Part shown: positions 27,806-43,983 of the stretch, in pieces
How the letters are laid out: each line of letters begins with the position of its first letter
How positions within the stretch are numbered: the first letter of the stretch is position 1
Origin: Pedobacter psychrophilus
Lineage (GTDB): Bacteria; Bacteroidota; Bacteroidia; Sphingobacteriales; Sphingobacteriaceae
Reading direction: 5' to 3'
Assembly: GCF_001652725.1 (NCBI RefSeq)
Contig: NZ_LWHJ01000011.1
Coordinates: 310,001-374,000, forward strand
DNA: 64,000 bases
Notes under the pieces: generated by a model
Told to the model about the DNA's origin: nothing
The model's database searches: none
What the model saw: the letters and a program-made list of their open reading frames with translations, nothing else
Translations under genes and position numbers: made by a program

Positions 27806-29065
27806 TTAAGAAATTCCCATTCTATTCGAATCAAATTTTAAAAGCGTAAAAAGTAAAATCGTGAAGCTTAAAAGCGATGATCCGCCATAGCTTAAAAATG
27901 GAAGAGGAATCCCGATAACCGGCATTATCCCAATTGTCATAGCTATATTAACAAAAAAATGGCAAAAAATTATACAAGCAACGGCATAACCATAAACTCT
28001 CCCTAAAGATGATCTTTGCCTTTCGGCGAGATGGATAATTCGTAATAAAAGGAATACATAAAGACCAATTACCACAAAACTTCCAATAAAACCCCATTCC
28101 TCACCAACGGTACAAAAAATAAAATCAGTGCTTTGTTCTGGTACAAAATTAAATTTTGTTTGTGTTCCCTGTAAATATCCTTTACCAATTAAACCACCAG
28201 ATCCGATTGCAATTTTAGATTGATTTACGTTATAACCAACTCCTCTAAGATCATTTACCTTTCCTAAAATTAAATCTATTCTAACTTTTTGATGGGGTTT
28301 TAAAATGCTTGTGTATACAAAATCAACACTAAAAATAAAGAGGACCGAGAGTATAAGACCGGAGACAAAAACAGTAATTAAATTTCTATGCTTTCTGAAT
28401 TGATAAATTAGAAATGCAACTATTAAAACTAAACCAATAATGATGTAAAGCTTTGGATACAGCAATGTAAGTACAAATAATAAAACCATTAAAGCACCTC
28501 CAATTAAAAAATATGGAGATAAACCTTCACGATAGAGAACTAAAATGAGAGATATAAAGACCAATGCAGAGCCTGCATCTGGCTGCAAAACAATAAGCAA
28601 AACAGGAAGACCCAAAATTCCTAATGTGGGTAATAATGTTTTTGTGTCAGATAATTTTGTATTCATTACCCCTAAATGTCTGGCCAATAGTAAACTTGTT
28701 GCCCATTTTGCAAATTCTGAAGGTTGTAATCTAAAATTACCTATCGGGATCCAAGCTTGATTTCCTCCAACGTTTCTTCCCACAACCAATACTATTATCA
28801 ATAATAAAATGGTTATACCATAAAATATTGGGGCTAATGTTAAAAAGAATTTAGCATCTAACAATAAAACAATAATGGCGACAATTATTGCAACTATAAT
28901 GTAAATGAGTTGCTTGCCAGAATTACTAGAAATATTAATAAGTGCTTCATCCTCATTATATACTGCAGCATGGATATTAAACCAACCAATAGCTACTAAA
29001 CATAGGTATAAGAAAATGGTTATATAATCTACATTAAAGAAAAAACTTCTGTTTTGGTTGTTCAT
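27806..29065 (-). CDS. rodA: Rod shape-determining peptidoglycan glycosyltransferase RodA
   Basis: A 419-residue SEDS-family membrane protein with ten or more membrane segments. RLQPSEFAKWATSLLLARHLG, QPDAGSALVF and the C-terminal FLSYGGSSLLSFT are SEDS signatures, and the Asp of QPDAGS is the catalytic residue of these polymerases. RodA builds glycan strands for lateral wall growth together with PBP2. It follows mrdA by 3 bases and is the last gene of the elongation operon. Confidence 0.95.
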   Translation of the reverse strand: MNNQNRSFFFNVDYITIFLYLCLVAIGWFNIHAAVYNEDEALINISSNSGKQLIYIIVAIIVAIIVLLLDAKFFLTLAPIFYGITILLLIIVLVVGRNVGGNQAWIPIGNFRLQPSEFAKWATSLLLARHLGVMNTKLSDTKTLLPTLGILGLPVLLIVLQPDAGSALVFISLILVLYREGLSPYFLIGGALMVLLFVLTLLYPKLYIIIGLVLIVAFLIYQFRKHRNLITVFVSGLILSVLFIFSVDFVYTSILKPHQKVRIDLILGKVNDLRGVGYNVNQSKIAIGSGGLIGKGYLQGTQTKFNFVPEQSTDFIFCTVGEEWGFIGSFVVIGLYVFLLLRIIHLAERQRSSLGRVYGYAVACIIFCHFFVNIAMTIGIMPVIGIPLPFLSYGGSSLLSFTILLFTLLKFDSNRMGIS

Positions 29066-29068
29066 TCT

Positions 29069-30994
29069 TTAGTTAATTTTTGGTTTAATAAGGGGTACGG
29101 CATTAACTCTTTTCACCTCGCTTGCAGCAGTACTATCTTTTTTATTGGATGGTTTAAAATATAATTTCTTTTGTCCAGGTAAAAGGTTAGCGTTTAATAA
29201 TCTATCAGTATAATATTTTGGTCTGCTAATAGTGTCTTTCAAATATTTTTCGATCATTAAACTGGCAATTGGTGCACTCCAGGTTGCACCATATCCTGCA
29301 TTTTCTACTACTACTGCTATAGCAATTTTAGGGTTAATTCTTGGGGCAAAAGCTACAAAAACAGAGTGATTTTCTCCATGAGGATTTTGTACGGTTCCTG
29401 TTTTTCCACAAATTTCGATATCGTTAATTTTAGCGTTATATGCGGTTCCATTTGGTGCATTTACCACTCTACTCATTCCTTCTATAACTGCATCAAAATA
29501 TTTCCCTTGGATGCCAGCATCATTCTTTTTAGTATATTCTTCTTTAATTATTTTTTTATCACCCATAGCTTTAATCAAATGTGGCTTATAATAAAACCCA
29601 CGATTTGCTAATATTGCCATCACATTTGCCATTTGTAAAGGGGTAATTCCTAATTCTCCTTGTCCTATTGATAAGGACATATTATAGCTAGAAGTCCATT
29701 TGTCGTTTCTAAATCTTTTGGTATAATAATCTGCAGTTGGTATTAAACCTGGTCTTTCTGCTGGTAAATCAATATCCAAAACATCTCCAATTCCAAATTT
29801 TTTCACCATATTTCTCCACCTTGTATAAGCATTAATAGGTCTCAAACCAGTATGATCAATCATTCTGTTGTAAGTATTCCCATAATAAGTATTGCAAGAT
29901 TCTTCTATGGATTGCTCTAAATTTATGGTTCCATGGACGTGAGTACAACCCATCCATCCATTTCTGCCATATCTATAGCCACCTGGGCAATTAAAATAAG
30001 TTTTCGGATTTATGATTCCCAATTCTTGTGCTACCAAAGCATTGATTACTTTAAATATAGATCCGGGAGGATATTCTGCTTGTATTGGCCTGATAAACAT
30101 GGGTTTAAAAGGATTATTCAATAATTTCATGTAATTATTTCCCCTTTGGCGGCCAACCATCATGTTGGGATCATAACTTGGACTGCTAATAGACGCTAAA
30201 ATTTCTCCCGTAGAAGGTTCTATAGCCACTACACTTCCAATTTTATTTATCATTAGGCTTTCGCCGAACAATTGCAGCTCTTTATCTAATGATGATATTA
30301 GATTATCTCCAGCAACTGCGGTAGAATCATATTTTCCCTCAAAAAAACTTCCTTGTTCGCGGTTGTGTACATCAACCATAATGTTTTTAACACCTCGTTG
30401 TCCTCGCAATAAATCTTCATAAGATTTTTCTATACCTGTTTTACCTATATAATCTCCCTGACCATAAAAATCATCGTATTTTTCAATTTCTTTTTCATTT
30501 ACCTCACCAATATATCCTAAAAATTGTGCTGCAGTAGAATCTGGATAAAACCTAACCGATCTGTTTTGAACGTAAAAGCCATGATATTCAAATAATTTTT
30601 CTTGAAAGGCAGCATAAGTTAAAGCCGATAGCTGTTTTTGAAAAATGGAGGCTTTATATGGAGAATAGTTTTTTGCTTTTTTAAAAGCTTTATCAAAATC
30701 TTGCTTAGAAATTTTTATCAAATTACAAAACTCTAAAGTATCCATTTCTTCTACCTGGCCGGGGATAACCATTAGATCGTAAACGGGTTCATTTTGTACC
30801 AATACCTTCCCATGTCTATCTAAAATAACACCTCTGGCAGGATAAATAATTAGTTTACGTAATACATTATTATCAGCGGAAAGCTTATAACGATCGTCTA
30901 CAACTTGGATATAATATAGCCTGCCCAATAATACAAGGGCAACAAAAATGAATATTCCTTGGATGATATACCTGCGCTTAAAAAAACTGTTCAT
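29069..30994 (-). CDS. mrdA: Penicillin-binding protein 2 (elongation transpeptidase)
   Basis: A 641-residue class B penicillin-binding protein with an N-terminal membrane anchor (about 9-27), a pedestal/dimerisation domain with PARGVILDRHGKVLVQN, and a C-terminal transpeptidase. The active-site motifs are PPGSIFKV (SxxK), ESCNTYY (SxN) and CGKTGT (KTG). It is the partner of RodA, and the gene order mreC-mreD-mrdA-rodA supports this. It overlaps mreD by 4 bases. The C-terminal tail beyond residue 600 is lysine-rich. Confidence 0.95.
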   Translation of the reverse strand: MNSFFKRRYIIQGIFIFVALVLLGRLYYIQVVDDRYKLSADNNVLRKLIIYPARGVILDRHGKVLVQNEPVYDLMVIPGQVEEMDTLEFCNLIKISKQDFDKAFKKAKNYSPYKASIFQKQLSALTYAAFQEKLFEYHGFYVQNRSVRFYPDSTAAQFLGYIGEVNEKEIEKYDDFYGQGDYIGKTGIEKSYEDLLRGQRGVKNIMVDVHNREQGSFFEGKYDSTAVAGDNLISSLDKELQLFGESLMINKIGSVVAIEPSTGEILASISSPSYDPNMMVGRQRGNNYMKLLNNPFKPMFIRPIQAEYPPGSIFKVINALVAQELGIINPKTYFNCPGGYRYGRNGWMGCTHVHGTINLEQSIEESCNTYYGNTYNRMIDHTGLRPINAYTRWRNMVKKFGIGDVLDIDLPAERPGLIPTADYYTKRFRNDKWTSSYNMSLSIGQGELGITPLQMANVMAILANRGFYYKPHLIKAMGDKKIIKEEYTKKNDAGIQGKYFDAVIEGMSRVVNAPNGTAYNAKINDIEICGKTGTVQNPHGENHSVFVAFAPRINPKIAIAVVVENAGYGATWSAPIASLMIEKYLKDTISRPKYYTDRLLNANLLPGQKKLYFKPSNKKDSTAASEVKRVNAVPLIKPKIN

Positions 30995-31506
30995 TTACGC
31001 TCCTTTTTTCTAAAGAATATTAATTCGGCAATAAAAATTAAGATCAATGTAAATAATGAACTGATAAATACCCTACTTAGTGTATTAATTATTTCTGAAA
31101 ATTTAAAAACCTCAAAAGTTAAAAGAAAGAAATGATGTATTAACGTGAGAATAAGGGCATAAAAGAAAAACCATCTAAAACCCATAATTGCTAAAGTTGG
31201 TTCTGGGTCACTATCATAGTTATCTTCTTGTACCGTTACTCTAATAATTACTGTCCTAAAAAAAGCTAAAATAACACAGGCAGTTGCATGTAAACCTAAG
31301 GTATCACTAAATAAATCAACAGAAATTCCTATTAGGAAGGCAAGTGTAAAGAGTAACCAATTTGGTGTTTCAAAAGGTAATAAAAGAACGAATAAAATAT
31401 AAAGATATGGTACGTTAAGACCATAAATTACCATGTTTTTTAATAGAAATACTTGTAGTGCTACAAGTAATATAAAACGAAGAGCATTAGTTAATATCTT
31501 AATCAT
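30991..31506 (-). CDS. mreD: Rod shape-determining protein MreD
   Basis: A 171-residue polytopic membrane protein with five or six hydrophobic segments and FLIGISVDLFSDTLGLHATACVI-type MreD core, of which GISVDLFSDTLG is diagnostic. It overlaps mreC by 8 bases and mrdA by 4. MreD helps to position the elongation complex at the inner membrane. Confidence 0.88.
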   Translation of the reverse strand: MIKILTNALRFILLVALQVFLLKNMVIYGLNVPYLYILFVLLLPFETPNWLLFTLAFLIGISVDLFSDTLGLHATACVILAFFRTVIIRVTVQEDNYDSDPEPTLAIMGFRWFFFYALILTLIHHFFLLTFEVFKFSEIINTLSRVFISSLFTLILIFIAELIFFRKKERK

Positions 31507-32338
31507 TTACACTCTCCTTATTTGCATCTTCTAAGGTTTCTTGTTCTGTTTGATAATTATTTTTAATTACATAAACATATTCAATGGCGTAAAAATTAGT
31601 AGAAAGTTTAACTGAAATATCTAAAAAACTTCCTCCACCCTTTACACCGGCTTTATCTACTATTCCTATTAAAACACCTTTAGGGAAAATAACTCCTAAT
31701 CCAGATGTTACTACCCTAGCTTTTGGCTTTAAATTAAGTTGATTGGGAATATCTGTTAAAGTAACATAATTTGGGTCTTTACCCTCCCAAATTAAAGGTC
31801 CAAAATAAGGAGAACCTTCAATAGATGATGTAATACGGGTGTCTTCATGAAGTATGGATTGAATAGAGGAAAAATTTTTTGTAACATTCCAAACAATACC
31901 CACTATCCCGTTTGGACCAATTACGCCCATTCCTTTTTTAATACCAGCCTTGCTTCCTCTATTGATCGTTAAATAATTGTTTCTTGAGGTGATGCTTTTA
32001 TTAACTACTTCAGATAAAATATATTCGTATTTTACTTTATTAATTGTATCAGTTACTATTTTAGTAACAATGCTATCGTTTAAAAAAGAAGATTTAAGCT
32101 GATTGTGCAGAGAAATATTTTCTTTCGCCAAGCTATCATTAACTAAATTAAGGTTTAGATACTTATTTACGATATTTACTTTCTGATAAATACCTCCAAT
32201 TATTTCATTAGAGCTATTATAAACACTCGCCTTTTGAAAATCATTATTTTTTATTAATAAGGTAATGGAAATCACCAGATAGATAATTAAAAAAAAGAAT
32301 GCATTAAACCTGCTTATGAACCTCCAAAGATTTATCAT
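31499..32338 (-). CDS. mreC: Rod shape-determining protein MreC
   Basis: A 279-residue protein with an N-terminal membrane segment (about 13-30), a coiled coil (about 60-88) and the periplasmic MreC beta-domain: NRGSKAGIKKGMGVIGPNG, VWNVTKNFSSIQSILHEDTRI, VVTSGLG and FPKGVLIGIV are family motifs. It is the first gene of the elongation operon in this window. mreB is normally found directly upstream; here the upstream neighbour is an antiporter gene on the same strand, after 237 bases. Confidence 0.93.
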   Translation of the reverse strand: MINLWRFISRFNAFFFLIIYLVISITLLIKNNDFQKASVYNSSNEIIGGIYQKVNIVNKYLNLNLVNDSLAKENISLHNQLKSSFLNDSIVTKIVTDTINKVKYEYILSEVVNKSITSRNNYLTINRGSKAGIKKGMGVIGPNGIVGIVWNVTKNFSSIQSILHEDTRITSSIEGSPYFGPLIWEGKDPNYVTLTDIPNQLNLKPKARVVTSGLGVIFPKGVLIGIVDKAGVKGGGSFLDISVKLSTNFYAIEYVYVIKNNYQTEQETLEDANKESVND

Positions 32339-33763: not shown

Positions 33764-34056
33764 AAAATTGTTTCTACTGCAATCGCTAAGATAAATGAAT
33801 TTTAGGATTATAAAACTTATAAATATTATGGAATTAATCTATTATTAATCAATTACTTATGATTTTGAAAAGTGCCTTAATATAATTTTCTTAAATTTGT
33901 AGCCATTCGGTCAATCTATCAGCAATAATCGCTTCTAATTGTTAATCAAGTTTTTATGATAAAATTATGTTTAGCTGTCGAGTCACAAAGATTCCTTTTA
34001 GTTGATTTTTAAATTGAAATAATATGAGGATTGATATCTGATATAAAAAAATAAAA

Positions 34057-34485
34057 ATGGAGTTTAAGATTATAAATAAAGAAACTGGAGAGGATAAAGA
34101 ATTTACAAATGATGCAATTGCATCATTTTTAGAAATTCATTTAGGGCGATTTGGTGATAAAAAGGAAGATATTTTAAAATGTTTGGACTACGTATTTAAG
34201 AAATGCGGAAATATAACTCTTGGAATTGAGAACAGCCAAATTATTGGAGCAGTTGTAGTAAACGAAACAGGAATGGACGGTTATATTCCGGAGAATATCT
34301 TAGTTTACATTGCGGTTCATGAAAACCAAAGAGGAAAAGGAATGGGTGGCAAGCTGATGAAAAAAGCCATAGATAATGCCAATGGGAGCATTTCTTTACA
34401 TGTAGAGCCGGATAATCCTGCGAAAAAACTATACGAGCGTTTAGGTTTTACCAACAAATACCTAGAAATGCGTTTGCAAAGATGA
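34057..34485 (+). CDS. GNAT acetyltransferase, first gene of the racemase operon
   Basis: A 142-residue GNAT domain with ENQRGKGMGGKLMKKAI (acetyl-CoA loop, about 91-107) and the C-terminal AKKLYERLGFTNKYLEMRL. Its stop overlaps the amidohydrolase start (ATGA, 4 bases), so coupling is tight. It would acetylate an amino group on an amino acid or small peptide. Combination with an M20 deacylase and two PLP racemases suggests acetylated amino acids as intermediates, which is an inference from gene order. Confidence 0.85.
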   Translation: MEFKIINKETGEDKEFTNDAIASFLEIHLGRFGDKKEDILKCLDYVFKKCGNITLGIENSQIIGAVVVNETGMDGYIPENILVYIAVHENQRGKGMGGKLMKKAIDNANGSISLHVEPDNPAKKLYERLGFTNKYLEMRLQR

Positions 34486-35627
34486 ATTCTGTAGTAGAAA
34501 ATTTAAAGTTTATAAGGCAATACCTTCATCAACATCCAGAATTATCTGGTTGTGAGAAAGAAACTGCTGCCTTTATTTTAGAAAAATGCATTCATTTAAA
34601 TACTTCTAAGATTATTAAAAACATAGGAGGATACGGTTTTTTGGTAGTTTTTGATAGCAACATTACTGGAGATTCACTTTTGTTTAGAGCCGAATTAGAT
34701 GGACTGCCTATTCAAGAATGCTCAAATTTACTGTATAAATCAATTTACAGTAACAAAGGACATCAATGTGGGCATGATGGACACATGACTATTTTATTTG
34801 GGCTAGCTCAATATTTATCAAAACATCCAATTTTAAAAGGAAAAGTAAGTCTTCTTTTTCAACCTTCAGAAGAAAATGGAAAAGGGGCTAGGAGTATAAT
34901 TGAGGATGAAAAATTTTCAAGGCTCCATTTTGACGAGGTTTTTGCATTACATAATCTCCCTGGATTTGAAAAACATGCAATAATTGTCAAAGAAAATGCC
35001 TTTACAGCTGCCGTTAAAAGTATGGCGATAAGATTAGAAGGAAAAACTTCTCATGCCGCTGAGCCAGAAAACGGTATTAATCCAGCTTTGGCTGTCGCCG
35101 ATATTTTGCAAATAGTGGAAGCATTAAACTTTAACCAACCTCATCATCAGGATTTTAAATTAGCAACTTTAATACATGTTAATATTGGAAGCTTGGCTTA
35201 TGGCGTTTCTGCTTGCGATGCAGAAATCCATTACACCATTAGGAGTTGGAGTGATGAAAATCTAGAAAATCTGGAATCCGAAATAATCAAAATACTAAAT
35301 GAAGTTGCTGCAAATTATCGGCTTAAAGCCAAATACCATTTTTTAGAACATTTTTATGCAAATATGAATGATAAAGATAGCGTAGACGTAGTTAGAAAAG
35401 CTGCAAAAACTCAAAATCTAACTATTATAGAAAATGATTTTCCTTTTAAATGGGGTGAGGATTTTGGTTTTTTTACAAAAAAATATAAAGGTTGTTTGTT
35501 TGGTTTAGGATCTGGAAAAGACCAACCTGCCTTGCATAATCCTGATTATGATTTTCCGGATGAAATTTTAGAAACTGGAATTAATATTTTTAAAAGTATA
35601 ATTAAGGAGAGATTAAACATAAGCTAA
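34482..35627 (+). CDS. M20 family amidohydrolase (N-acyl amino acid / peptide deacylase)
   Basis: A 381-residue M20D-type metallohydrolase. QYLHQHPELSGCEKETA, FRAELDGLPIQE, the metal motif HQCGHDGHM (Cys and two His), QPSEENGKGA (Glu pair), and KTSHAAEPENGINPA in the dimerisation domain are all present. Family members are hippurate, indole-3-acetyl-amino acid or N-acetyl-amino acid hydrolases. It overlaps GNAT by 4 bases and precedes alanine racemase by 18. The substrate is probably an N-acyl amino acid, not confirmed. Confidence 0.9.
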   Translation: MNSVVENLKFIRQYLHQHPELSGCEKETAAFILEKCIHLNTSKIIKNIGGYGFLVVFDSNITGDSLLFRAELDGLPIQECSNLLYKSIYSNKGHQCGHDGHMTILFGLAQYLSKHPILKGKVSLLFQPSEENGKGARSIIEDEKFSRLHFDEVFALHNLPGFEKHAIIVKENAFTAAVKSMAIRLEGKTSHAAEPENGINPALAVADILQIVEALNFNQPHHQDFKLATLIHVNIGSLAYGVSACDAEIHYTIRSWSDENLENLESEIIKILNEVAANYRLKAKYHFLEHFYANMNDKDSVDVVRKAAKTQNLTIIENDFPFKWGEDFGFFTKKYKGCLFGLGSGKDQPALHNPDYDFPDEILETGINIFKSIIKERLNIS

Positions 35628-35645
35628 CTGCAAAAAAACAATTAA

Positions 35646-36794
35646 ATGTTTGAAACATCATCATTAACTATCAGTAAATCTGCCTATCAAAACAACCTTG
35701 ATTTCATTAGAAAACAATGTAATGATGGAGTGCGGTTTTGCAGCGTGGTTAAAGGAAATGCTTACGGACATGGTTTGGTTCCATTTGTTAGGATGGCTTA
35801 TGATCAAGGTGTGGATTATTTCGCAGTCTATTCATCGGCGGAAGCCTACGAAATAAAAAGTGCATTGCCTAAAGCAGATGTGATTATTATGGGGATGACC
35901 GATGAACCTTCCATGGAATGGGCCATCAATAATGAGGTAGAAATCTTTGTTTTTGATTTTGAGAAATTGGAATTGGCTATAAAAATGGCTCATCAAATTA
36001 ATAAGAAGGTAAATATTCACATTGAGGTGGAAACCGGTATGAACAGAACTGGATTTTTGATTCAAGATTTACCTCATGTATTCTCTATTATTAAAGAAAA
36101 TATCGATTTTAATGAACTAATCGGTTTTACCACTCACTACGCAGGTGCAGAAAGTTTAGTGAATGATTTTAGGGTGAGGGAACAAATAAATCTGTTTGCT
36201 AAAGCGCAAGATATGCTTCATCAATCGGGCTTAAAGCCCAAATATATACATAGCGCTTGCTCTGCAGCCATGATGAATTATCCAGAAACGATTGGCAATT
36301 TGGTGCGTATTGGCATTATGCAATATGGTTTTTGGCCAAATGAAGAAACTTTAATCAGGTTTAATGGAAATAGCAGGGAAAACGACCAAACTTTAAAACG
36401 TTTATTGAGTTGGAAAAGTAAAGTGATGACCTTAAAACCTATTAAAAAAGGCGATTATGTAGGTTATAACACAAGTTTTCAAGCTTACGCCGATATGACT
36501 TTAGCCGTAATTCCGGTTGGTTATGCGTATGGCTATAGCCGAAGTTTAAGTAATAGTGGGAAGGTTTTAATTCATGGTGAAGAAGCGCCAATTTGCGGTA
36601 TAGTAAACATGAATGCACTTTGTGTAGATGTTTCTCACATTCCAAATGTTAAAAAAACTGATGAGGTGGTTTTGATTGGTAATCAAGATAAAAAAACGAT
36701 TTCAGTTGCGTCTTTTGGCGAAATGAGCGACCAACTCAATTATGAATTGCTAACTCGTTTACCTTATGATATCCCTAGAACAATAATAGATTAA
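35646..36794 (+). CDS. Alanine racemase family enzyme
   Basis: A 382-residue fold-type III PLP racemase. The PLP lysine is K36 in VVKGNAYGHG and the catalytic tyrosine is Y297 in GYAYGYSRSLS, so both bases are kept. HIEVETGMNRTGF and VRIGIMQYG are further family motifs. The canonical MD of the active-site loop reads MN here (NMNALCVDV). It is the third gene of the operon and overlaps the next racemase by one base (TAATG). A separate housekeeping alr may exist elsewhere; whether this is the wall enzyme or one of a paralogous set is not known, so no symbol is given. Confidence 0.9.
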   Translation: MFETSSLTISKSAYQNNLDFIRKQCNDGVRFCSVVKGNAYGHGLVPFVRMAYDQGVDYFAVYSSAEAYEIKSALPKADVIIMGMTDEPSMEWAINNEVEIFVFDFEKLELAIKMAHQINKKVNIHIEVETGMNRTGFLIQDLPHVFSIIKENIDFNELIGFTTHYAGAESLVNDFRVREQINLFAKAQDMLHQSGLKPKYIHSACSAAMMNYPETIGNLVRIGIMQYGFWPNEETLIRFNGNSRENDQTLKRLLSWKSKVMTLKPIKKGDYVGYNTSFQAYADMTLAVIPVGYAYGYSRSLSNSGKVLIHGEEAPICGIVNMNALCVDVSHIPNVKKTDEVVLIGNQDKKTISVASFGEMSDQLNYELLTRLPYDIPRTIID

Positions 36795-37864
36795 TGGCAT
36801 TTTTAAAATTATACAAAGACAAACTATCGCATAATTATGCGATGTTAGAAAATTGGTTTTTAGAAAACGGTATTGAATGGGGCGTTGTATCTAAATTATT
36901 GTGTGGCAATAAATTATATCTGCAAGAATTGGTAAAATTGGGCGTAACCGAGTTTCATGATACCAGGATTACCAATTTAAAAATGATTAAAAACGTTGCT
37001 CCAAATGCACAAACAGTTTATATAAAACCTCCCGCAAAAAGAAATATTCCCAGTATTATTAAATATGCAGATGTAAGTTTTAACACTTCTTATACCACCA
37101 TTAAATTATTGAGTGAGGAAGCCGTAAAGCAAAATAAAATCCATAAAATCATCATCATGGTAGAAATGGGCGATTTGCGTGAAGGTGTTGTAGGAGAAAA
37201 ACTACTAGATTTTTACGATCAGGTTATCCATACGCCAAATATCAATATCGTTGGTTTAGGTACAAACCTTAATTGTTTAAACGGGATAATGCCTTCGCAT
37301 GATAAATTAATTCAGTTGAGCCTTTATAAACAATTGATTGAAGCCAAATTTGATATTAAAATTCCTTGGATTTCTGGCGGCACAAGTGTCACCGTTCCTT
37401 TATTGATTAAAGAGCAACTGCCTAAACAAATTAATCATTTTAGAGTAGGAGAGGTGTTGTTTTTTGGTCTCGATTTATTTACCAACCTTACCATTGTTGG
37501 GATGAATAATGATGTTTTTAGGCTTTACGCCGAGATTATCGAACTTTATGAGAAACCAAAAGTGCCAATTGGAGAGCAAGGTTTTAATGTTGTGGGTGAA
37601 ACACCAGAATATCCCAAAGAAGATTACGGAAAACTCTCTTACAGAGCAATTTTAGATATTGGTTTGCTGGATTGTAATCCTCAATATTTAATTCCTGATG
37701 ATGAAAATATCAATATTATTGAGGCCAGTTCTGATATGTTGGTTTTGGATGTTAACCAAAATGAAGCAGGTTATAAAGTAAGCGATTTAATCAGTTTTAA
37801 ATTGAAATATATGGGAGTTTTAGGGATTATGAATTCAAATTATATTGATAAAGTGGTGGTGTAA
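36794..37864 (+). CDS. Alanine/ornithine racemase family PLP enzyme (YhfX/Orr-like)
   Basis: A 356-residue fold-type III PLP enzyme. The PLP lysine is K34 in VVSKLLCGN, followed by EFHDTRITNLKMIK, MVEMGDLREGV and FRVGEVLFFG, as in ornithine racemase and related proteins. It lacks the C-terminal GYxDGY motif of true alanine racemases. It directly overlaps the preceding racemase by one base. Two non-identical racemases in one operon suggest either two substrates or a heteromeric enzyme. The substrate is unknown. Confidence 0.85.
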   Translation: MAFLKLYKDKLSHNYAMLENWFLENGIEWGVVSKLLCGNKLYLQELVKLGVTEFHDTRITNLKMIKNVAPNAQTVYIKPPAKRNIPSIIKYADVSFNTSYTTIKLLSEEAVKQNKIHKIIIMVEMGDLREGVVGEKLLDFYDQVIHTPNINIVGLGTNLNCLNGIMPSHDKLIQLSLYKQLIEAKFDIKIPWISGGTSVTVPLLIKEQLPKQINHFRVGEVLFFGLDLFTNLTIVGMNNDVFRLYAEIIELYEKPKVPIGEQGFNVVGETPEYPKEDYGKLSYRAILDIGLLDCNPQYLIPDDENINIIEASSDMLVLDVNQNEAGYKVSDLISFKLKYMGVLGIMNSNYIDKVVV

Positions 37865-41104: not shown

Positions 41105-42337
41105 CTATTTTATAAATTTCTGATTGATAGTTTCAGCTTCGGAAGTAAATCTTGCAAAATGAACCCCATTAGATAATGATAAAGGCAATTCAAAACTATT
41201 GAAACCTTTATTTACTTCAACAGAACTTTCAGAAAGTTTTCTTCCTGCAATATCAAAAACCTGTAAAAGTCCTTTAGTTTTATTAGGTGAGGATAATGAT
41301 ATTTTTACGCTTGTTACATTTGCATAAACACTCAACGTAGCAGCATCAATTTTAGAATCTACAGGAATAATTGCAGAACTAGCCGTTTTACCATCATAAT
41401 CATGTTGAACTAATTGATAGTAATTTGTACCCGCATAAGGGTTTTCATCACTAAAAGAATAATCTTTTGAAGATGTAGAAGTTCCTGCACCTTTAATGGT
41501 TCCTATTGAAGTAAATGATTTACCATCTGCAGAACGCAACACATCGTAGAAATCATTATTAGTTTCAGAAGCTGTATTCCAGTTTAACAATATACTTTGA
41601 TTAATAGTTTTACCAGTGAAGGAGGTAAGTTGGATTGGTAGGGTAGTGTATGATGTAAATGAAAAATTATCAATTCCAAGTGCTGCATCATTTCCAGCAT
41701 CATCTACATCAGAAAACCTTAACATAATTTCACTTCCAGCAGGAATGGCTACATTAAAGATTGCGGTTATTGCAGTTTTATTTGCTGCAAGATTACCATC
41801 AATAGCTCCAGTGGTTAAAACTCCAAATTTTGGAGACGTAAAATTTAAAGAAGAAACATTAATCCAAGTTCCTGTTATTAAGTTTGTAATTGGAGAGGAA
41901 GAAACTTGGTAAGAAAAAGATAGAGTTTGTGCAGTAGACCCATCTACTTGTCTCCATTGTTCTCCAGTGTAACTCACAGAAAGAGAATTAATTTGGGCAC
42001 CAGTAGCATTTTTTAACCTTTGTCCGTAATATATTGATCCTGTAGATCCTGATACTAAACTGCCTAATGCCCTTTCTGTTGTAGCTGATGAACCTAAACT
42101 ATATAAATCTCCTGTATTGGCTGAACCTGTTGATGCAGAATAACTGGTTTTAGGATTTGTAGATACTGAAGCAGCATACCAATTCGGAATTGAACCGTTA
42201 TCAGTCCATGTGCTTCCGGTTCCTGATAAAATTAGCCCATTAAAATCTTCGGAATATGTAGTTGAAGGATCAATATTTGTTTGTCCCCAAACAAAAAAAG
42301 GTATCGATATTAATAAAGAAAGTAAGATTTTTTTCAT
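41105..42337 (-). CDS. Secreted protein with T9SS type A sorting domain (PEP/choice-type anchor region)
   Basis: A 410-residue protein with a signal peptide (about 1-18, SIPFFVWGQ). Residues 25-225 form an all-beta domain rich in Thr, Ser and Gly. Residues about 230-330 hold a beta-sandwich module (LPIQLTSFTG... NPYAGTNYYQLVQHDYDGK) common before T9SS tails. The last 75 residues (LQVFDIAGRKLSE... VHFARFTSEAETINQKFIK-type ending) are a type A sorting signal, so it is delivered to the cell surface by T9SS. Its activity is unknown. It shares its C-terminal half with the next gene. Confidence 0.82.
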   Translation of the reverse strand: MKKILLSLLISIPFFVWGQTNIDPSTTYSEDFNGLILSGTGSTWTDNGSIPNWYAASVSTNPKTSYSASTGSANTGDLYSLGSSATTERALGSLVSGSTGSIYYGQRLKNATGAQINSLSVSYTGEQWRQVDGSTAQTLSFSYQVSSSPITNLITGTWINVSSLNFTSPKFGVLTTGAIDGNLAANKTAITAIFNVAIPAGSEIMLRFSDVDDAGNDAALGIDNFSFTSYTTLPIQLTSFTGKTINQSILLNWNTASETNNDFYDVLRSADGKSFTSIGTIKGAGTSTSSKDYSFSDENPYAGTNYYQLVQHDYDGKTASSAIIPVDSKIDAATLSVYANVTSVKISLSSPNKTKGLLQVFDIAGRKLSESSVEVNKGFNSFELPLSLSNGVHFARFTSEAETINQKFIK

Positions 42338-42431
42338 ATAATATATTTAAAAGATTAATAATCTGATAAATATAAAATAAATTATAGATGAAATTTGACG
42401 ATAATAAAAATTTTAACAATTTAATAATAAA

Positions 42432-42464
42432 AAAATCCCTATTATTTAAAATAATAAGGATTTT
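42432..42464 (-). terminator. Terminator downstream of the second T9SS gene
   Basis: Arms at 42432-42446 and 42450-42464 form a 15-base stem with one mismatch and a 3-base loop. On the minus strand the stem is followed by a run of T residues. It lies 16 bases past the stop of the gene ending at 42481. Confidence 0.8.
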
Positions 42465-42480
42465 AATAAATTTTGATTGA

Positions 42481-43983
42481 TTATTTAATGAATTTTTTCA
42501 CTACCGTTTCATTTTCTGTAGTATATCTTACAAAATGTATCCCATCTGGTATAGTTAAAGGAAGAATAAAATCATTGTAGCCTTTATTTACAGATACATT
42601 ATCTTCTGTAATCCTTCTTCCTCCAATGTCAAAAACTTGAAGTTTAGCATTGGTTTGGTTAGGGGATGAAACAAATATTTTAAGCTGGCTACCACCCGCA
42701 TAAACGTTTAATTGAGAATTTGCTAATTTAGAATCTACAGCAACAATTTTAGATACTGAAGACTTCCCATCAAAATCAAATTGAACCAGCCTATAATAAT
42801 TTACTCCTGCATAAGGATTTTCATCTAAAAATGAATATTTTAAAGATGAATTAGACGTTCCTGTGCCATTTAATCTTCCTAAAGAAGAAAATATTTTTCC
42901 GTCTGTAGAGCGTTGGATTTCAAAATATTGGTTGTTTAATTCTGCTGCGGTATTCCAATTTAAAGTAATAGTTTGGTTAGATGATGTACCATCAAATGCA
43001 ATTAAAGTTATTGGTAAAGGAACTAAACTAGTTTGTATATCAAGTTTTACTGGTGTAGTTTGTAAATTTCCATTTAAATCTTCTGCTATAACATAAATGT
43101 CATACGGTGTATTTGCACCTAAACCAGTAACATTTTTTGAAGCATCTGTATTTGCCGTAGGGTTAAAGAATGATCCACTTACTGCAGCAATTCCACCAAC
43201 ATCGTTTTGTCCATCTCTTACTTGTTGGGCGCTTGGAGCGGCATTTCCATCTGGTAAAACAACATAATAAGTATTACCAATTTCATTTATATTAGAAACA
43301 AGATCTAAATTAGTCTGATCTAAATTAGAAACTGTAGGATAATTTGCTGCAAAGGTAGGAGCTATAGCTTCTGTTAAAGTACCCCCAATAGTTAAACCAT
43401 TATTTGCGGTAGATGTTGTTGCAGAATAAAAACCCCATCCACCAGTAGTAGTTTGTCCTGAGGCATAATATCTTAAAGTAATTGTTTGGGTCGAGGGTAC
43501 ATTCTGTATTTCAGTTACTGCACCAATGCTTTGACCAGGTAAATCTACATCTCCAGATGCATCAGATGTATTTACTGGAGCACCAATTAATGTAAAAGTT
43601 GTTCCATCTAGACTATAAGCAAATTGTGAATTTACTCCAGGTGAAGTTACATAACTTGCTGTTCCTCTAAACTTAGCGTTAATACTAGCTAAAGAAAGTT
43701 TAAAACCCGTATTTGCTTTTAAAGTAATTTGAAAATAATCTGTATTGGTTAACGCTATCCCATTATTGCTAAATCCCGTTGTTCTAAAAGAGGCAGCCCC
43801 TGCACTAGCTGGAGCACCGGCGCCACGAGTAATATCACTTACAGTTAAATTTGATACAGTAGTGGTTGCGGGAGCAGTTGATGTGGCGTTTAATGCGTTA
43901 ACATTATAGCCAACAATCGTTTGTGCTTTTGCACTATATCCTAAAGCCAGAATTAATGCAATTGAGAGTAATTTTTTTTTCAT
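42481..43983 (-). CDS. Secreted protein with T9SS type A sorting domain
   Basis: A 500-residue protein with a signal peptide (about 1-20, ALGYSAKAQ). Residues 20-215 are a beta-rich, Ala/Thr/Gly-rich domain; about 215-320 may be a fibronectin-like module; about 325-425 contain the same LPITLIAFDGT... NPYAGVNYYRLVQFDFDGK module as its neighbour. The final residues (AKLQVFDIGGRRITE... VVKKFIK) form the T9SS sorting signal. Function is unknown. The pair probably arose by duplication of the C-terminal half. Confidence 0.82.
   Translation of the reverse strand: MKKKLLSIALILALGYSAKAQTIVGYNVNALNATSTAPATTTVSNLTVSDITRGAGAPASAGAASFRTTGFSNNGIALTNTDYFQITLKANTGFKLSLASINAKFRGTASYVTSPGVNSQFAYSLDGTTFTLIGAPVNTSDASGDVDLPGQSIGAVTEIQNVPSTQTITLRYYASGQTTTGGWGFYSATTSTANNGLTIGGTLTEAIAPTFAANYPTVSNLDQTNLDLVSNINEIGNTYYVVLPDGNAAPSAQQVRDGQNDVGGIAAVSGSFFNPTANTDASKNVTGLGANTPYDIYVIAEDLNGNLQTTPVKLDIQTSLVPLPITLIAFDGTSSNQTITLNWNTAAELNNQYFEIQRSTDGKIFSSLGRLNGTGTSNSSLKYSFLDENPYAGVNYYRLVQFDFDGKSSVSKIVAVDSKLANSQLNVYAGGSQLKIFVSSPNQTNAKLQVFDIGGRRITEDNVSVNKGYNDFILPLTIPDGIHFVRYTTENETVVKKFIK

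Follow-up and report, generated by a model that had tools for sequence, protein, structure and literature searches.

Four adjacent genes of Pedobacter psychrophilus very probably form a single functional module: a core pair, consisting of a GNAT-family acetyltransferase and an ornithine-racemase-like enzyme dependent on pyridoxal phosphate (PLP) that we call ORR, and a dependent add-on pair, consisting of an M20-type hydrolase and an alanine-racemase-family enzyme (ALR). The genes occupy positions 34057-37864 of a 64,000-nucleotide stretch (contig NZ_LWHJ01000011.1, positions 310,001 to 374,000), hereafter the window, whose numbering is used throughout. Dead bacterial matter is rich in D-amino acids, which also have roles in cell walls and signalling; we know of few routes by which Bacteroidota make or remove them. 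The widespread, co-inherited pairing of a racemase with an acetyltransferase provides a defined candidate for a D-amino acid route in this phylum, and because the racemase recurs beside an acetyltransferase of another, unrelated family, a principle suggests itself, namely that acetylation pulls reversible racemisation.

All four genes lie on the forward strand. The GNAT-family N-acetyltransferase (34057-34485, 142 amino acids; PF13508, PF00583) is followed by an M20D-type amidohydrolase, or N-acyl-amino-acid deacylase (34482-35627, 381 amino acids; Peptidase_M20, M20_dimer, TIGR01891), by ALR (35646-36794, 382 amino acids; Ala_racemase_N, PF01168; Ala_racemase_C, PF00842; TIGR00492), and by ORR (36794-37864, 356 amino acids; Ala_racemase_N, PF01168; NF040742). 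An earlier note on this DNA had listed junctions of 4, 18 and 1 bases, and the coordinates of the open reading frames (ORFs) confirm them as a 4-base overlap (GNAT/M20), an 18-base gap (M20/ALR) and a 1-base overlap (ALR/ORR). Among NCBIfam models, M20 exceeds the cut-off for the amidohydrolase family TIGR01891 (211.9 bits; cut-off 153.75) and ALR that for alr, TIGR00492 (280.8 bits; cut-off 168). GNAT reaches no equivalog cut-off, scoring 35.4 bits where 86.4 are needed for the RimI S18-alanine N-acetyltransferase (TIGR01575), and M20 misses the 550-bit cut-off for the N-acetyl-diaminobutanoate deacetylase DoeB2 (NF038260) at 191.1 bits. A scan for sigma-70 promoters and terminators gave no excess relative to shuffled sequence.

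The proposal that these genes belong together is borne out by their distribution across the phylum. In 395 evenly sampled genomes (with ALR counted at E<=1e-60), ORR is present in 63, GNAT in 62 and ALR in 43; 61 genomes contain both GNAT and ORR (hypergeometric 3e-68), and ORR is present in every one of the 43 ALR genomes, where about 7 would be expected (hypergeometric 2e-42), both probabilities ignoring shared ancestry. In 15 of these 43 genomes ALR and ORR are on different contigs or over 200 kilobases (kb) apart (draft contigs could adjoin), so its dependence on ORR is not merely linkage. The distances between ORR proteins correlate with those between GNAT proteins (r=0.80, n=125; none of 500 permutations as high), as do those of M20 with those of ALR (r=0.81, n=61), shared species history contributing to both. 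ORR is patchy even among close relatives, being found in 9 of 201 genomes of its own family and in 8 of 300 of the order. Each enzyme family is common by itself, and the four genes might have been adjacent by chance; recurrent clustering, co-occurrence and correlated distances make this extremely improbable, and, as far as such counts can settle it, the co-occurrence over 395 genomes rules out unrelated neighbours. Homologues lying mostly apart, which the earlier note had held would speak against a common role, are not what was found: clustering and co-occurrence persist.

Gene neighbourhoods were mapped at 61 loci, namely the window and 60 of the 71 other genomes in which ORR was matched (absent are G138, G316, G319, G337, G346, G459, G467, G498, G538, G546 and G555, of which G538 was examined separately). 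Near ORR at these loci are GNAT (58), a sodium symporter of the SSS family (37), M20 (27), ALR (22) and an M23-family protein (19). The three loci without GNAT are L062, L081 and L103, and by whole-genome search the genomes of the first two do contain it, next to ORR in G417 and on another contig in G559. A further 80 named loci, from Pedobacter segetis, Flavobacterium, Fulvivirga, Pontibacter, metagenome-assembled genomes of Balneolia and Ignavibacteria, and others, have GNAT in 72 cases and the whole set of SSS, GNAT, M20, ALR and ORR in 34, two of which add M23; where GNAT is missing (8 loci), ORR is near a contig end in six, L119 has a 436-base gap into which GNAT would fit, and L146 has none. 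Clustering on the same strand recurs across many genera with the order rearranged (SSS-GNAT-M20-ALR-ORR; SSS-GNAT-ORR-M23-M20-ALR; GNAT-ORR-SSS-M20-ALR).

The four genes had been taken as equals, a view that the comparison revises: GNAT–ORR is the core, M20–ALR is the add-on, and a frequent further member, the symporter, is missing in this strain. GNAT and ORR occur alone in 20 of the 61 mapped and 18 of the 80 named loci, and three relatives of the same genus (L046, L047 and L048) have only these two. In L046, the 226-base gap between them retains the final codons of ALR (blastn match to window 36759-36838, covering the end of ALR and the start of ORR, 79% over 81 bases, E=1.6e-10), which indicates that M20–ALR was lost there. 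In 7 of 18 further ALR loci M20 directly adjoins ALR, in one of them (L191) at a distance of about 8 kb from ORR; the two genes therefore often move together. ALR is unlikely to be the housekeeping racemase of the cell wall: the same genome has a second ORF with an alanine-racemase domain, of 843 amino acids, the length expected of the Bacteroidota MurF-Alr fusion that it presumably is. Second copies of ALR in G301, G421 and G406 (L197-L199) are preceded by a gene of 404-408 amino acids and a protein of 659-661 amino acids; in L197 the former is an ATP-grasp protein and the latter has no Pfam match, neither giving a clue to substrate. These loci are possibly a ligase system that uses a D-amino acid.

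Two ORR-positive genomes, G351 and G538, lack this GNAT, and each has other partners. In G351, ORR follows OraE (with aminomutase domains) and MutL and scores 505.7 bits, above the NF040742 cut-off; this is the clostridial arrangement. In G538, ORR overlaps a DUF1611 protein that matches the N-acetyltransferase DgcN at 164.9 bits (cut-off 480), and the pair is followed by a gene resembling M15 D-Ala-D-Ala dipeptidases. The DUF1611 partnership recurs on plasmids: in 7 of 18 plasmid records (four Vibrio, Ruegeria, Phaeobacter and Aliiroseovarius) a DUF1611 gene is directly upstream of an ORR relative, with 4-base overlaps wherever both are annotated (the seventh record, V. cyclitrophicus, was read from ORFs). 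One more record, from Persicobacter, has GNAT-M20-ALR-ORR, and the other 10, with neither GNAT nor DUF1611, comprise Ora-type, Salmonella, rhizobial and further arrangements (one of three Salmonella records was inspected, H10 and H11 being left out). Among the ORFs of the two sets of GNAT-type loci (61 and 80), BLAST gave no match to DUF1611. In the tree, GNAT-linked and DUF1611-linked ORRs form two clades (support 100/100 and 100/99). Two unrelated acetyltransferase families thus partner this racemase family, which indicates that the pairing arose with each.

The plasmid loci have further features. Four DUF1611-ORR pairs from Vibrio and roseobacter plasmids (L207, L210, L213 and L216) have GroEL/GroES and Hsp20, or HflK/HflC, a few kb away, which suggests stress islands. 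The rhizobial and Roseateles records (L218 and L219) encode proteins of 595 amino acids whose N-terminal part resembles ORR, and the adjacent genes encode a D-amino acid dehydrogenase, RidA and a 5-guanidino-2-oxopentanoate decarboxylase; judging from these neighbours, this branch looks like one with arginine as its substrate, broken down through D-arginine. The Salmonella plasmid (L222) has another two-racemase set, with an alanine racemase-like gene, an APC permease, an ORR-like gene and an amino acid permease.

The active sites of the module are well preserved, as seen in alignments from which six duplicate-ORR loci and short fragments were removed. The statement that ALR has both catalytic bases holds, K36 and Y293 being invariant in 68/68 relatives; it also keeps the Lys, Tyr, Arg and Met of canonical Alr and the Tyr of the alanine pocket, pocket Tyr and Arg likewise in 68/68. 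Residue 323, after the active-site Met, is Asn in all 68 aligned relatives, where the five printed solved alanine racemases (5/5) and the 843-residue ORF of the same genome have Asp, and the GYAD motif of canonical Alr is GYAY in ALR and mostly GYAH among its relatives. By residue numbering, with no alignment, we take this site to be D322 of Mycobacterium tuberculosis alanine racemase. In that enzyme, according to an excerpt of PMC6744398, replacing D322 with Asn slows catalysis about 20-fold and lowers inactivation by cycloserine 240-fold; because the Asn is invariant, the ALR clade may, by analogy, be naturally tolerant of cycloserine. In M20, nine metal-ligand or active-site positions, assigned from general knowledge of the family, are invariant in 63/63 relatives; the best solved relative is YxeP (1ysj), presumably identical with ScmP (UniProt P54955). 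The PLP lysine of ORR, K34, which belongs to an N-terminal barrel of the alanine-racemase type, is invariant in 135/135 relatives. A sequence search for solved structures of ORR returned none at E<=0.001; its model (predicted local distance difference test, pLDDT, 90.8) has the two-domain alanine-racemase fold, with lysine racemase 4dza as the top match (Z 26.7, root-mean-square deviation 2.9 across 324 residues), on a par with broad-spectrum and alanine racemases. The GNAT model (pLDDT 95.0) matches NatC-, RimI- and GCN5-like folds in a tie (Z 16.4 to about 15).

The sodium symporter is often a member of the module. In Pedobacter segetis (L104) it abuts GNAT, in the position of the intergenic stretch upstream of GNAT in the window (33764-34056); no remnant was detected in that stretch (best tblastn match E=0.67), and the best match elsewhere in the genome has 27% identity. 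The superfamily includes proline carriers, and the NCBIfam matches of the symporter are below cut-off. In one family, a universal-stress-protein gene is directly upstream of the cluster. In one lineage group that includes Balneolia (L060-L081), an M23-family protein of about 200 amino acids is encoded between ORR and M20 (for example, L077:9089-9688); these proteins resemble the middle of NCBIfam PRK06148 proteins, and their N-termini, judged by eye, have no evident signal peptide. A cytoplasmic M23 enzyme is unusual.

Such neighbours raise the possibility that the genes serve to scavenge D-amino acids from N-acyl peptides and peptidoglycan: SSS would import, M20 (elsewhere M23 or M15) would release amino acids, ALR and ORR would turn D-Ala and the D forms of basic amino acids into their L counterparts, and GNAT would only detoxify surplus. 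The frequency of M23 and SSS (19 and 37 of 61 loci), the M15-like gene beside the ORR of G538 and the alanine pocket retained by ALR are in keeping with this reading, which we nonetheless consider rather unlikely: the apparent lack of signal peptides does not indicate extracellular degradation of walls by M23, and the loci with GNAT and ORR only leave no hydrolase. The recycling of peptidoglycan or D-peptides that the earlier note suggested thus retains some weak hints, in the M23 proteins and in the M15-like gene of one distant ORR, and nothing was seen in support of its other suggestion, siderophore use.

PLP racemases require a free alpha-amino group with which to form a Schiff base, and hence do not accept amino acids that are acetylated on the alpha nitrogen. 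This makes the order first envisaged for the four enzymes (acetylate, racemise, deacetylate) unlikely for alpha-N-acetylation, and only acetylation of a side chain permits it. We propose, with confidence somewhat short of even, that the module serves the metabolism of free amino acids around a racemase-acetyltransferase core. ORR, as its family and fold suggest, would interconvert L- and D-amino acids, the likeliest substrate being basic (ornithine, lysine or arginine); GNAT would acetylate one of the two enantiomers on its amino group, D being favoured over L, and so pull reversible racemisation one way, towards an N-acetyl-D-amino acid that would be a product or a detoxified form; the optional M20–ALR would extend the range of substrates by cleaving N-acyl-L-amino acids and racemising a small amino acid, for instance alanine; and the symporter, where present, would import substrate. 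By analogy, we favour as the simplest reading of the fixed pair that racemisation would supply the very enantiomer that the acetyltransferase removes. The M20 deacylase ScmP acts on N-acetyl-L-cysteine and not on N-acetyl-D-cysteine (excerpt of PMC12757645), and because this relative deacetylates the L form only, M20–ALR is best seen as a helper pair for N-acyl-L-amino acids and a small amino acid.

Several points weigh against this proposal. The substrates of all four proteins are predicted from family and fold. ORR had been called ornithine-type: its match to the ornithine racemase Orr (NF040742) is full-length, but at 322.5 bits it falls below the 480-bit cut-off. Most of the tied fold neighbours of GNAT acetylate peptides or proteins, and they give no clue to its substrate; the D-specificity would be carried over by analogy from the DgcN-like acetyltransferase, a match that is itself below the curated cut-off, with L206 the sole DUF1611 protein scanned against NCBIfam. 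Because the tested M20, ScmP, is L-specific, M20 would leave the product of a D-specific GNAT untouched, and it is hard to place within a single pathway. Lastly, L146 has SSS, M20, ALR and ORR with no GNAT detected, and G275 has GNAT without ORR.

Two other schemes were considered. In one, a linear route for diamino acids, GNAT would acetylate the side-chain amine of ornithine or lysine, the racemase would invert the alpha carbon and M20 would deacetylate; the alpha-amine would be left available to PLP, but the route is improbable, as many genomes keep GNAT–ORR without M20, the two racemases would be redundant, and M20D enzymes typically act on alpha-N-acyl groups. In its favour are gene clusters of acetyltransferase and M20 deacetylase in Bacillus subtilis (excerpt of PMC12757645). 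Alternatively, M20–ALR could be an N-acetyl-diamino-acid deacetylase and epimerase of a diaminopimelate- or lysine-type route, in which lysine or ornithine would be the substrate of GNAT and ORR. An M20-type hydrolase does adjoin an alr2 homologue in the Salinicoccus lysine operon (excerpt of PMC4685198), but we think this scheme very doubtful: the recurrent partners, in neighbourhoods where a minority of the single neighbours were identified, are not dap genes, and the module is patchy (63/395), a distribution that one would not expect of lysine synthesis.

Returning to the racemase-acetyltransferase core, pairs of this kind might constitute a general, convergently assembled route from L-amino acids to N-acetyl-D-amino acids, a conjecture that we think unlikely as it stands; it would cover GNAT-ORR in Bacteroidota and relatives and DgcN-like-ORR in Vibrio and roseobacters, the product being a stress solute or an exported metabolite. 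Such a product would fit the symporter, the universal-stress-protein gene upstream, and the GroEL/GroES, Hsp20 or HflKC genes nearby. N-acetyl-lysines are known compatible solutes (excerpt of PMC4685198), with which a compatible-solute role would be consistent, as it would with the proline-carrier superfamily and the nearby stress genes, none of these being decisive.

Elsewhere in the window, the opposite-strand genes upstream of the cluster (27806-32338) are, to judge from their sequence, presumably RodA, PBP2, MreD and MreC; genes of the same lengths adjoin the cluster in relatives of the same genus. Downstream, at 41105-43983, are two adjacent secreted proteins with similar C-terminal ends, which look like type IX secretion sorting domains.

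The earlier note knew of no standard pathway that uses this set, and a search of one open-licence full-text library (subscription papers lying outside it) returned no described pathway with this gene set. The enzyme families are each known; that library gave no description of their combination, of its nested co-occurrence or of the second acetyltransferase partner. Several known systems come close to the module. The clostridial Orr of the oxidative ornithine pathway shares with ORR its full-length model and fold family, but ORR misses the cut-off, has GNAT for a partner without OraE or MutL, and falls in a separate clade; ORR was therefore rejected as a true clostridial Orr. ALR keeps the catalytic residues and pocket of canonical Alr, and differs from it and from the MurF-Alr-type ORF of its own genome in the invariant Asn for Asp and in the altered GYAD motif. 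In the staphylococcal and Salinicoccus dap operons a deacetylase-type hydrolase likewise adjoins an alanine-racemase-family gene (excerpt of PMC4685198), whereas the pair in the window depends on GNAT–ORR and dap genes are not its regular partners. In the scm, ytn and yha clusters of B. subtilis an acetyltransferase is found with an M20 N-acetylcysteine deacetylase, YxeP being the closest solved relative of M20, but those clusters contain monooxygenases, and the excerpt of PMC12757645 mentions no racemase. The D-glutamate pathway of DgcN and DgcA also couples an N-acetyltransferase to racemisation; a DgcN-like protein is the partner of the related ORR in G538, and DUF1611 proteins are partners of ORRs in Vibrio and roseobacters. 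The window, by contrast, has a GNAT as its acetyltransferase and a racemase that depends on PLP, DgcN-like partners being found only at distant ORRs. DgcA, for its part, is an enolase-superfamily enzyme that acts after acetylation. We would place the module with acetylation-coupled D-amino acid metabolism, which is known in kind.

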